64,000 nt of DNA. It comes from Kocuria sp. cx-455 (lineage in GTDB: Bacteria; Actinomycetota; Actinomycetes; Actinomycetales; Micrococcaceae). The DNA lies in assembly GCF_014698015.1 (NCBI RefSeq), contig NZ_JACXBS010000005.1, positions 186,001-250,000 of the forward strand, written 5' to 3'. Made by a program: the position numbers and the translations under genes. The notes under the pieces are model-generated. The model ran no database searches and had not been told where the DNA came from. It saw only the letters and a program-made list of their open reading frames with translations. Below, one piece after another: positions 19,157 to 21,792 of the stretch. Every line of letters starts with the position of its first letter. Positions within the stretch are counted from its first letter, which is position 1.

Positions 19157-20094
19157 ATGGTAAGCACGCTGAAGATTGCACTGGTACCCGGCGGGTCACG
19201 GGGGCTTGGCCTCCTGGTCAGCCGCGAACTCCTGAATCGGGGCTACGCCGTAGCCATTGCCGCTCGTGATCACGATGAGCTCACCCGCGCGAAGGAGCGG
19301 CTGTCATCCCACGGAACCGTCAAGGACTACGTCTGCGACGTTCGCGATGCGGACGCCGTGAAGCGCCTGGTCCATCAGGTGGAACAGGATCTGGGTCCCG
19401 TGGAGGTCCTCATCACCGTTGCCGGCATTATTCAGACCGGCCCGCTCGAAGCGGTCACCGAGGAACACTTCAAAGACGCCATTGACACCATGACGTACGG
19501 CCCTATTCACTGTGCGTTGTCGGTATTGCCCGGCATGCGGCAGCGACGCTCCGGTCACATCGGGCCGTCGCCTCAGTGGGTGGGCTGGTCTCTCCTCCCC
19601 ATCTCCTCCCCTACGCCACCGCCAAGTTCGGCGCAGTGGGTTTCAGCGAGGGACTTGCTGTGGCCCTGTCCGGTTCCGGAGTCACCGCCACCACCATTGC
19701 TCCCGGCCTCATGCGCACCGGTTCCCATGAGAGGGCCTTCTTCACGGGTCAGTCGGCCAAGGAGTACGCGTGGTTCGCTCCGGCGGCGTCCTTGCCCGTA
19801 CTTTCCATGAACGCGGACCGCGCGGCCCGGATCATCGTGGACGGCGTGTTGGCGGGCAAACCCACCGTGCTGGTCGGCTGGTTGCCCAAGGTCGCCCAGC
19901 GGGTCCACGGCCTTGCGCCCGGCCTGACCACCCGCGCCATGGGATTGGCCAACCGACTACTTCCCGGGGCACGCCCGGATCAGTCCGGGCTCCGCGAGGG
20001 CAGGGAGGCCGCCTCGGCTCTGAATTCCAAGGTCGTGAAGGTGCTCACCGTCCTGGGATCCAAGGCCGCACGCAAGAACAACGAACGCGGATGA
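19157..20094 (+). pseudogene. Short-chain dehydrogenase/reductase, frameshifted
   Basis: The first 135 codons give a classical SDR N-terminus (GGSRGLG cofactor motif, CDVRD, TVAGII), ending at RSGHI. From 19567 the match continues in another frame with VASVGGLVSPPHLLPYATAK, holding the catalytic Ser and YxxxK, to the stop at 20094. One base is missing between 19559 and 19567 (ATCGGGCCGTC against an expected ATCGTGACCGTC-like sequence). Restored, the product would be about 312 residues. Either the gene is inactive or the base is a sequencing error; the rest shows no decay, which favours a recent event or error. Confidence 0.82.
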
Positions 20095-20115
20095 TGCCCG
20101 CATCCAAGCGTTGAA

Positions 20116-20154
20116 GAACCCGGTGCCTTCCGGATTCGACGAGGCACCGGGTTC
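20116..20154. terminator. Bidirectional terminator, SDR versus SMR operon
   Basis: GAACCCGGTGCCT pairs perfectly with AGGCACCGGGTTC over 13 base pairs. It lies between the convergent ends of the SDR gene and the SMR operon. Confidence 0.75.
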
Positions 20155-20163
20155 ACGGATGGG

Positions 20164-20535
20164 TCAGCCAGTTTCCGGGGGGCCAATCCCATCTGCGGTA
20201 TCAAGGGCCTTACCAGGTTGACTGGGGACCAGTTTGAGGCCGACCACCGCCGCGATAATGCCCGAGATGAAAATGATCTTCCCGACCGAGACGCTTTCTG
20301 TTCCGGTGGCCATGGCGTAGATCACCGTGAGGGCTGCCCCTACGCCGGTCCACACTGCGTAGGCGGTACCAATGGGAATATGCTTGGCGGCCCAGCCGAG
20401 TCCCGCCATGCTCATGGCGAGTCCGGCGAAGAACACGAGGGTGGGGGTGAGCTCACTCAAACCGCTGGATTCACCGAGGGCGGTTGCCCAGACGGCCTCG
20501 AACACGGCGCTGATCAAAAGCACGATCCATGGCAT
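20164..20535 (-). CDS. SMR-family exporter subunit, second of a pair (probable guanidinium exporter)
   Basis: A 123-residue, four-helix small multidrug resistance protein. The essential membrane glutamate is in helix one (AVFEAVWATALG), and GTAYAVWTGVGAALTV is the helix-three signature. It begins directly after the stop of its partner (TGA then ATG), so the two are translated together, as in heterodimeric SMR pairs. The extra C-terminal tail after KLVPSQ is unusual. The guanidine-III riboswitch upstream of the operon points to guanidinium export (Gdx/SugE-like function). Confidence 0.88.
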   Translation of the reverse strand: MPWIVLLISAVFEAVWATALGESSGLSELTPTLVFFAGLAMSMAGLGWAAKHIPIGTAYAVWTGVGAALTVIYAMATGTESVSVGKIIFISGIIAAVVGLKLVPSQPGKALDTADGIGPPETG

Positions 20536-20850
20536 TCAGCTCACCACCTTCAGGCCGATCACGGAGCTGACGAGTAGCACGAGCAAGAGCACCCGCACGA
20601 AGGTGGGACGCTCATAGCCCCTCACGAAGCCCCACAGCACGGTGAGCGTTGCGCCAATCCCCACCCACACCGCGTAGGCGGTGCCGGTGGGAAGTGAGGT
20701 CATGGCCCACGCGAGACCGGTCATGCTCAGGGTGAGACTCACCAGGAAAATGAGGGTGGGAATTTTACGTTTGAATCCGTGCGACGCTCCCAGAGCCGCC
20801 GCCCAGACGGCCTCGAGCGTGCCGGACAGAATAAGTATGAACCACGCCAT
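20536..20850 (-). CDS. SMR-family exporter subunit, first of a pair (probable guanidinium exporter)
   Basis: A 104-residue, four-helix SMR protein with the conserved glutamate in GTLEAVWAAALG and helix-three motif GTAYAVWVGIG. I choose ATG 20850 because AGAAAG lies nine bases upstream; the in-frame ATG at 20859 would leave no space for a ribosome site. The riboswitch core ends about 16 bases before this start, so guanidine probably controls ribosome access. Works with the adjacent SMR subunit in the cytoplasmic membrane. Confidence 0.88.
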   Translation of the reverse strand: MAWFILILSGTLEAVWAAALGASHGFKRKIPTLIFLVSLTLSMTGLAWAMTSLPTGTAYAVWVGIGATLTVLWGFVRGYERPTFVRVLLLVLLVSSVIGLKVVS

Positions 20851-20865
20851 GACGTGCATCTTTCT

Positions 20866-20907
20866 GAGTCAGTCTTGTCGTGGTGCGGGTACTGCTCCCT
20901 CGTCCGC
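20866..20907 (-). promoter_or_regulatory. Guanidine-III (ykkC-III) riboswitch
   Basis: On the minus strand the sequence has, in order, GCGGACGAGG, GAGCAGT, ACCCGC and GACAAGACTGACTC. These match the class III guanidine aptamer elements GGACGAGG, ACCCG and GACAAGAC in the right order and spacing. GAGCAGT can pair with ACTGACTC to form the pseudoknot, and GCGG with CCGC to form the short stem. The 3' strand is followed closely by the ribosome site of the first SMR gene, consistent with translational control: guanidine binding would free the site. Confidence 0.88.
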
Positions 20908-20926
20908 GAGCCCCGAAGGCGGGCTC
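20908..20926 (-). other. Hairpin immediately 5' of the riboswitch
   Basis: GAGCCC and GGGCTC pair over six bases around a 7-base loop, directly upstream of the aptamer on the minus strand. It may shield the 5' end or be part of an extended leader; no known riboswitch element corresponds to it. Confidence 0.45.
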
Positions 20927-20991
20927 CGCTGCTCAAAGTAGCAAACGAGGACAGCATTTTCGACCCGTCCTCACCGTCACCTGGGTCACCG

Positions 20992-21684
20992 TCACCCCTT
21001 TGCCCGTGAATCCCTCCGGCGCACCAGGACGACTCGATACAGCACCCCCGCGGCCACCACGACGATTGACCCGACTATGGACCCGATCGGCAGCGTTACC
21101 ACGAGCACCAGGCACAGCAGCGCGCCCAGCGCGGCAGCAGCCGCTCCGATGCGGACGACGACGCCCGTCCACTCCCAGCCTCCGGCCGCGGCGACGTCCG
21201 CGAGCAGCGTCGTCGTAGCGGCAAGACGACCGGCGCCCAGGGTCGAGAGAGCGGCCACCGCGATGACCCCGTAGACCGCGAGAGCACCGAACAGTGCAAT
21301 CAGAATTGCTCGCGGAATGGTGCGGGACAGGGAGCGCACTTCCTCTCCCATGGTCGCGCTCCGGGCGTAGCCGGCAAAGGCGAAGAAAAAGAGGCCCGCG
21401 GACTGGAGGATCCCGCAGAACCCGGCGGGGGCGACGGTGCCGGTCAAACGGGACGCATCTGCCCGGCCGGAGGCCGGGTACCGCACAGCGAGTTGCGCGG
21501 ATGACGTGGCATTGCAGTAGGCGACCACCGCGGCAATGGCCAGACCGATCAGCAGTCCCGGCCCGGCCGCCGTCGCTGCGGGCGCGAAGGCTGCGAAACC
21601 CCCCGCCCCGATCATGGAGCCGAGGCCGATGGCCACGGCATCCCCGAGGCCCAGCTTGCGCTGCAGATCACCGGTGGTGGTCAT
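20992..21684 (-). CDS. APC-family amino acid permease with two internal deletions
   Basis: The 230-residue translation starts like a full APC permease (KLGLGDAVAIGLGSMIGAGGF, first two helices to RYPASG). It then jumps to TVAPAGFCGILQSAGLFFF and GYARSATMGEEVRSLSRTIPRA, normally about 200 residues on. A second jump after GALLC leads to LVLVVTLPIGSIVGSI, the last helices. Family members are about 430 residues, so some 200 are missing in two in-frame blocks. Start at ATG 21684 (MTTTGDLQ) is preferred over 21783. The frame is intact, but transport function is very unlikely. It lies upstream of, and on the same strand as, the SMR operon. Confidence 0.72.
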   Translation of the reverse strand: MTTTGDLQRKLGLGDAVAIGLGSMIGAGGFAAFAPAATAAGPGLLIGLAIAAVVAYCNATSSAQLAVRYPASGRADASRLTGTVAPAGFCGILQSAGLFFFAFAGYARSATMGEEVRSLSRTIPRAILIALFGALAVYGVIAVAALSTLGAGRLAATTTLLADVAAAGGWEWTGVVVRIGAAAAALGALLCLVLVVTLPIGSIVGSIVVVAAGVLYRVVLVRRRDSRAKG

Positions 21685-21792
21685 CGGTCGGGTCACTCCA
21701 GACGTGAAAAGGCGATCACGGCCGCCCAGGAAAGGTGACCGTGATCGCACGATATGACCCGAAAGTGACCGCCGGATGAACACCGGCCCGGA

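Follow-up and report, generated by a model that had tools for sequence, protein, structure and literature searches.

Evidence for a guanidine-III riboswitch before a paired Gdx-type exporter in Kocuria sp. cx-455, with a tentative model of start-codon masking

Guanidine-III riboswitches (RF01763) are described in PMC2864571 and PMC5696562 as a hairpin, a helix P1, an ACGA core, a P2 pseudoknot and a GACAAGAC strand, placed before SMR genes in actinobacterial hosts. Guanidine binding has been shown for the family in published work, and the control mechanism of the class is called less well established in PMC5696562. Among the SMR transporters, W16 is conserved in the Gdx subtype and replaced by Gly or Ala in Qac, which separates the two (PMC7695847). 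About 20% of Gdx genes are paired according to PMC9574504, which gives opposite charge bias in adjacent genes as the pattern of fixed-topology heterodimers. For the translational Guanidine-II riboswitch of P. aeruginosa, which has a different aptamer, PMC9561414 proposes that the ribosome site is masked when no ligand is bound, through a P0 helix formed by flanking strands.

We analyzed a stretch of 64,000 nucleotides of Kocuria sp. cx-455 DNA (the window) and found a locus on its minus strand that shares the hairpin, P1, ACGA core, P2 pseudoknot and GACAAGAC strand of the described Guanidine-III architecture, as well as its place before SMR genes in an actinobacterial host. In contrast to the usual form, the first pair of P1 is G-C rather than C-G, P2 has one bulged A, and the Shine-Dalgarno sequence lies directly at P2, whereas that of T. 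fusca is 16 nt away (PMC5696562). The two genes resemble the paired Gdx (SugE-type) exporters, with E13, W16, S42, Y59 and W62 in both subunits and opposite Lys/Arg bias, and nothing outside the known range of such pairs was found. The locus is thus a further case of a known riboswitch-exporter system and adds one more riboswitch-run Gdx pair. The features are collected in Table 1.

Table 1. Features of the locus in window coordinates.
Feature	Position	Strand	Basis or remark
Weak -35-like element TCGAAA, 17 bases upstream of the -10 element	20963-20958	-	
Extended -10 element TGC-TACTTT, likely promoter	20935..20943	-	spacing before the hairpin in relatives
Predicted transcription start (any one of the three bases), hairpin foot	20926..20928	-	-10 spacing and purine peak in relatives
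5' hairpin GAGCCC/GGGCTC, 6 bp (20926-20921 / 20913-20908), 7-nt loop	20908..20926	-	within RF01763
P1, GCGG 20907-20904 with CCGC 20888-20885	20885..20907	-	4/4 pairs
P2 pseudoknot helix, bulged A 20869	20866..20897	-	standard pairs in relatives
Candidate OFF hairpin, aptamer 3' part 20884-20866 (ACCACGACAAGACTGACTC) with 20860-20841	20841..20884	-	folding
Weak Shine-Dalgarno AGAAAG, nine bases before ATG 20850	20860..20865	-	AGAAGG at the same place in L013
SMR1, 104 aa, Gdx-type, bias +5 (predicted fixed topology)	20536..20850	-	PF00893, 72.6 bits
SMR2, 123 aa, partner subunit, bias -2	20164..20535	-	PF00893, 69.8 bits
Hairpin, 13-bp outer stem, then TTCAAC, between convergent genes	20116..20154	-	-28.2 kcal/mol, z -4.97

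The aptamer and its relatives

The covariance-model check proposed in the initial annotation was run with cmscan on the window against all families, and RF01763 (Guanidine-III, ykkC-III) matched 20929..20863 on the minus strand with 45.7 bits, above the gathering score of 36 (E 2.7e-6). Genome-wide, this locus was the sole RF01763 match (E 3.1e-8). The order of GGACGAGG (20905-20898), ACCCG (20890-20886) and GACAAGAC (20879-20872) that had been read from the letters was retained, as was the pseudoknot, in which GAGCAGT (20897-20891) pairs with ACTG-A-CTC (20873-20866) around the bulged A. Nothing beyond the modest score speaks for a chance resemblance to the aptamer, to which we give a negligible probability: the E-value, the site directly before SMR genes and similar matches before SMR genes in four other genomes of the genus (L014, L016, L017 and L019) stand against it, and score and conservation refute it as far as the tools used go.

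At E up to 0.001, 198 of 396 genomes drawn from the order had an RF01763 match, which passed the cut-off in 186; in the genus, 8 of 27 genomes had one. The relatives used for comparison include 80 extra loci picked from a score-ordered list, a non-random choice in which strong matches are over-represented. L022 was dropped before counting for a score below gathering, and L142 and L198 were dropped for lack of GGACGA. Removal of 9 near-duplicates reduced 128 loci to 119, and removal of 8 loci without an M-x-W protein start reduced these to 111. Two loci at which a wrong start had been taken (L016 and L141) were left out of the GTC/TCN, base -4 covariation and free-ensemble counts given below; they are still part of the aptamer-locking, zone-swap, second-SMR-frame and P1/P2 pair counts.

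Among the relatives, all four P1 pairs were standard in 111/111 loci, with CCGG/CCGG as the usual form. The first pair was C-G in 101 loci, G-C in 9 and T-A in 1; the window has G-C, and the swap from C-G in its group (9/111) is a compensatory change. P1 of the GCGG type was common to L013, L014, L016-L019, L021, L212 and L214. In P2, the first three pairs were standard in all 111 loci, the fourth in 109 and the fifth in 106, by a count that allows no bulge, so that window-like loci fail at the fifth pair; the bulged P2 was common to L013, L014, L016 and L017. We take window position 20901 to be the pocket base G7 by alignment. PMC7736828 names C6 and G17 as pocket bases, and both are kept as well (20902 and 20892 by alignment).

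With 45.7 bits the window is among the weaker matches, the best relatives being near 70, and together with the bulged P2 and altered P1 this could mean that the aptamer no longer switches or has a shifted ligand, the pair exporting other cations. We consider this very improbable, because the core bases are kept, the P1 change is compensatory, the altered P1 and bulged P2 are common to relatives, and the Gdx residues of the proteins are intact.

The SMR pair and its descent

The start of SMR1 is likely ATG 20850 (MAWF...), because SMR2 and many relatives begin with M-x-W; ATG 20859, taken by the ORF caller, would leave zero Shine-Dalgarno spacing. The gap of about seven bases between the P2 3' strand and AGAAAG given in the initial annotation was wrong, as AGAAAG starts at the very next base. 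The two genes abut, with the SMR2 ATG directly after the SMR1 TGA. SugE was the best NCBIfam model for both proteins (SMR1 97.7 bits, SMR2 82.0 bits); neither reached its cut-off of 126 bits, a threshold set for an equivalog rather than as a definition of the Gdx subtype.

The five Gdx residues noted above were present in both SMR1 and SMR2. Among solved structures, the closest to SMR1 were 6wk5 (E 8.9e-22), which we take to be Gdx-Clo, and 8vxu (4.2e-21); EmrE followed at a great distance (8.7e-8). The earlier reading of the pair as guanidinium exporters rather than generic drug pumps is supported at the sequence level by W16, the other Gdx residues and these matches. Additionally, the Lys/Arg loop bias, calculated with loop borders set by us, was opposite in the two proteins; SMR1 had its excess in loops 1 and 3, and SMR2 showed the reverse to a modest extent. 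Among 16 full-length pairs, the bias ranged from +2 to +6 in SMR1 (mean +4.4) and from -4 to 0 in SMR2 (mean -2.3), and 82 of 90 single SMR genes were at +1. SMR2 is 19 residues longer than SMR1 and has Ala at position 10, as do 15/16 partners. Because both proteins carry the Gdx residues and their Lys/Arg bias is opposite, SMR1 and SMR2 likely form a fixed antiparallel Gdx heterodimer. With the aptamer match directly upstream, we conclude that the locus is very probably a Guanidine-III riboswitch before a paired Gdx guanidinium exporter.

The nearest named relative of SMR1 was that of Kocuria atrinae (88% identity), in a comparison from which the window's own record may have been excluded. 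Another SMR gene of the genome, at C2:782852-783127 on the minus strand, gave the best PF00893 match (117.4 bits), and the genome-wide RF01763 search found no guanidine-III riboswitch match at it.

A second SMR frame lay behind the first in 20 of the 111 M-x-W loci; the frame of L141 was an artefact of the wrong start and was removed, that of L016 was a true second gene, and of the 19 remaining, 16 had both proteins at full length. The sequence examined behind SMR1 was at least 714 bases long, and a more distant partner would be missed. Paired genes were thus present at 19/110 riboswitch loci. In a tree of 110 SMR1 proteins, from which one locus with a short SMR1 had been dropped, the 19 paired proteins formed one side of a branch (SH-aLRT 93, from few columns), so that one duplication suffices. 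All aptamers in which P1 has G-C as its first pair (9/9, the window included) stood before paired genes, versus 10/102 of the others. This association may reflect shared descent, because pairing changes once on the SMR1 tree.

Both types occur within the genus. In L003-L005 the aptamer is of the CCGG type, and the at least 714 bases behind SMR1 showed no second SMR; L001, L014, L016 and L019 have the GCGG aptamer and paired genes, and L017 also has the GCGG aptamer. Replacement is possible, as is exchange between species.

Behind SMR2, the hairpin between the convergent genes is a possible bidirectional terminator, which may end the transcript. It was not listed in a terminator scan, which listed two other minus-strand sites at 20106-20082. 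Convergent with SMR2, overlapping plus-strand frames (19157..19810 and 19576..20094) lie in differing frames at 19157-20094; by eye these resemble one short-chain dehydrogenase, possibly a broken gene. Upstream of the riboswitch, at 20992-21783 on the minus strand, is a reading frame of an APC-family amino-acid permease. One model is matched by its residues 38-106 (model positions 4-74) and another by its residues 117-226 (model positions 189-298), as if the frame had an internal deletion and were truncated; it is possibly a remnant.

The 5' hairpin and the predicted transcription start

The 6-bp hairpin directly 5' of the aptamer had been regarded as an extra element. The alignment showed that its stem corresponds to RF01763 model positions 6-20 and belongs to the known architecture. 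In 128/128 parsed loci the best stem at this place had 4 to 9 pairs, a count biased towards finding one, as the script seeks a stem and tolerates mismatches.

Upstream of the hairpin, the motif TGN-NANNNT, ending 10 to 5 bases ahead of the hairpin, was present in 84 of the 119 non-redundant loci of the order; in 200 shuffled sets the mean was 1.5 loci (maximum 5), and other upstream six-base stretches gave a mean of 0.7 matches. NANNNT alone was present in 114/119 loci, compared with a mean of 16.7 matches (maximum 22) at other stretches. Among about 85 loci with the element, 31 had TTGNNN at a distance of 17 or 18 bases upstream of the -10 hexamer. When the 128 loci were aligned on the hairpin base, T/G at -17/-16, A at -12, T at -8 and A/G at -1/0 were prominent, with a purine peak at the hairpin base itself (A 0.59 at -1, G 0.82 at 0). 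Judged by its sequence and spacing, the upstream element in the relatives is an extended -10 promoter. A sigma-70 scan, for which a fuller match to the consensus is needed, found no promoter in 20000..21100 of the window.

The near-fixed distance of the -10 element and the purine peak at the hairpin base lead us to infer that transcription starts at the hairpin foot. The leader from hairpin to start codon had a median length of 73 bases (111 loci) and is about 76 bases in the window. An upstream copy of the P2 strand, CTTTGAGCAG (20938-20929), is complementary to CTCAGAAAG and CTG-A-CTC and was considered as an anti-Shine-Dalgarno. It was rejected; the copy is probably untranscribed, because its place corresponds to the -10 element and spacer of 84/119 loci.

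Pairing at the start codon and gene control

We propose that the class III guanidine riboswitch switches on the two-gene guanidinium exporter, most likely at translation. With transcription predicted to begin at the hairpin foot, about 76 bases of leader would hold the hairpin, pseudoknot aptamer, Shine-Dalgarno and start codon. Such a leader would have little room for a terminator, and so short a switch would have to use the aptamer's own strands. Without guanidine, the aptamer 3' part CCACGACAAGACTG would pair with the start-codon zone CACGTCATGGCGTGG, the weak Shine-Dalgarno being held in the loop. Guanidine, the binding of which is inferred here from the family, would stabilise the pseudoknot, which uses the same strand as the OFF pairing, and the start codon would be freed. 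The conserved residues and the charge bias suggest that SMR1 and SMR2 would then insert with opposite topology and act as a Gdx heterodimer, exporting guanidinium in exchange for protons. The OFF step, in which the aptamer 3' part masks the start-codon zone, draws on folding and comparison and is tentative; we think it a little likelier to fail than to hold.

In the window, the start-zone strand of the candidate OFF hairpin (20860-20841) runs from the Shine-Dalgarno end through the start codon to codons 2-3, and most of AGAAAG lies in the loop. This hairpin was both the minimum free energy and the centroid structure of 20887..20837 (-15.0 kcal/mol, z -2.24, with 4/200 shuffles as stable), and it also appeared in the minimum free energy structure of the whole leader when the pseudoknot was left aside (z -1.50, 12/200 shuffles).

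The start zones of the relatives were compared with those of 51 SMR genes without a riboswitch. Among 60 loci fetched as controls, 18 lacked an M-x-W start and 4 had a riboswitch core, and these were excluded; 22 named loci were used as well, except L093 and L111, left out by hand, and 7 with a possible core. The controls are unmatched for descent, some of them may be second genes of pairs, and a variant riboswitch may be hidden in L134. GTC at -3 to -1 was present in 61/109 riboswitch-run genes, a TCN second codon in 61/109 and both in 39/109, against 14, 3 and 1 of the 51 controls. No riboswitch-run gene (0/109) had a second codon starting with A, serine never being AGY, whereas AGC occurred in 6/51 controls, which argues for a choice at the level of bases and not only of protein. 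GTC-ATG-TCG is complementary to the aptamer's CGACAAGAC at 8/9 places. On the SMR1 tree, GTC required a minimum of 30 changes and TCN 28, and the two traits are labile yet common.

Duplexes with the aptamer strand were more stable for riboswitch start zones (-9.73 kcal/mol) than for control zones (-8.15 kcal/mol; p 0.0022, which, like the other start-zone p-values, ignores shared descent), and shuffled zones of either set gave -8.2 kcal/mol. In the free ensemble of 105 loci, 4 more having been dropped for their distance to the start, the start codon was paired with the aptamer at 0.508 with native zones, 0.343 with control zones and 0.458 with zones from other riboswitch loci; native pairing exceeded control-zone pairing in 80/105 loci (p 4.8e-8, again ignoring shared descent). 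The P2 3' strand can also pair just before the start codon in many loci, such as GACGGCC with GGCCGTC in L138, and a strong helix of this kind was found in 44/109 loci versus 21% of shuffles. These results suggest possible masking of the start codon by the aptamer strand in its free form.

Other results ran against the OFF pairing. Upon locking of the aptamer in a simple folding model of the 111 loci, release of the Shine-Dalgarno was not seen; its accessibility rose by more than 0.1 in 19 loci and fell in 61, with P2 misplaced by the script in 7 loci, the Kocuria loci among them. Pairing of the Shine-Dalgarno zone with the aptamer was not above controls (0.351 vs 0.317, p 0.093, shared descent ignored). 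In the window alone the gain was small, at 0.62 vs 0.49 (control zones) for the start codon and 0.43 vs 0.47 for the Shine-Dalgarno zone. L013, the aptamer of which is nearly identical to that of the window, showed start-codon pairing of 0.00. No locus-specific covariation of the start-codon helix was found, a swap of start zones among riboswitch loci leaving the mean duplex energy as it was (-9.72 vs -9.71). The base after AAGAC covaried with base -4 (11/22 vs 5/62, Fisher 7.7e-5), but well-supported tree branches held only 2 independent contrasts, too few for the tree test to have power.

Kocuria coralli (L019) has a different pairing of 13 bp, GGGAGCAGTACCC with GGGTACTGCTCCT, that covers the Shine-Dalgarno. 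Its inverted repeat (L019 1530-1542 / 1569-1581) has 12 Watson-Crick pairs and one G-U, and joins the P2 strand plus GTACCC to the Shine-Dalgarno zone. This is a clear-cut candidate expression platform and is unlike that of the window.

Control could also act mainly on mRNA lifetime, the guanidine-bound pseudoknot beside the 5'-terminal hairpin blocking the entry of RNases at the 5' end and having little direct effect on the ribosome. RNA-stability control by guanidine-III is reported in work cited by PMC12186494, the original being Richards and Belasco (2021), so that translation need not be the sole output. The short, compact leader and the folding test without Shine-Dalgarno release fit this explanation as well, which we nevertheless consider unlikely: a hairpin at the very 5' end should hinder RNase E loading even without ligand, and complementarity of the start zone to the aptamer is enriched in riboswitch-run genes.

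Start-codon masking, if the model holds, would resemble the P. aeruginosa Guanidine-II switch in closing the ribosome site in the free state, and would differ in using the aptamer's own 3' strand, unlike the P0 helix there (PMC9561414). For the order as a whole, its Guanidine-III riboswitches would do without a separate expression platform, the polymerase starting at the hairpin foot and GUC-AUG-UCN having evolved as an anti-aptamer to the invariant CGACAAGAC; we offer this as a conjecture with somewhat more against it than for it. At this locus, most attention is due to the position of the promoter and to the pairing at the start codon; neither was met in the parts of the literature that were searched, and we do not claim that they are unpublished.

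Two genes otherwise annotated as drug pumps gain a likely function from this analysis, and the comparison yields a concrete and cheaply testable model of class III guanidine gene control. If the model is true, ligand binding and translation initiation would compete for one strand.
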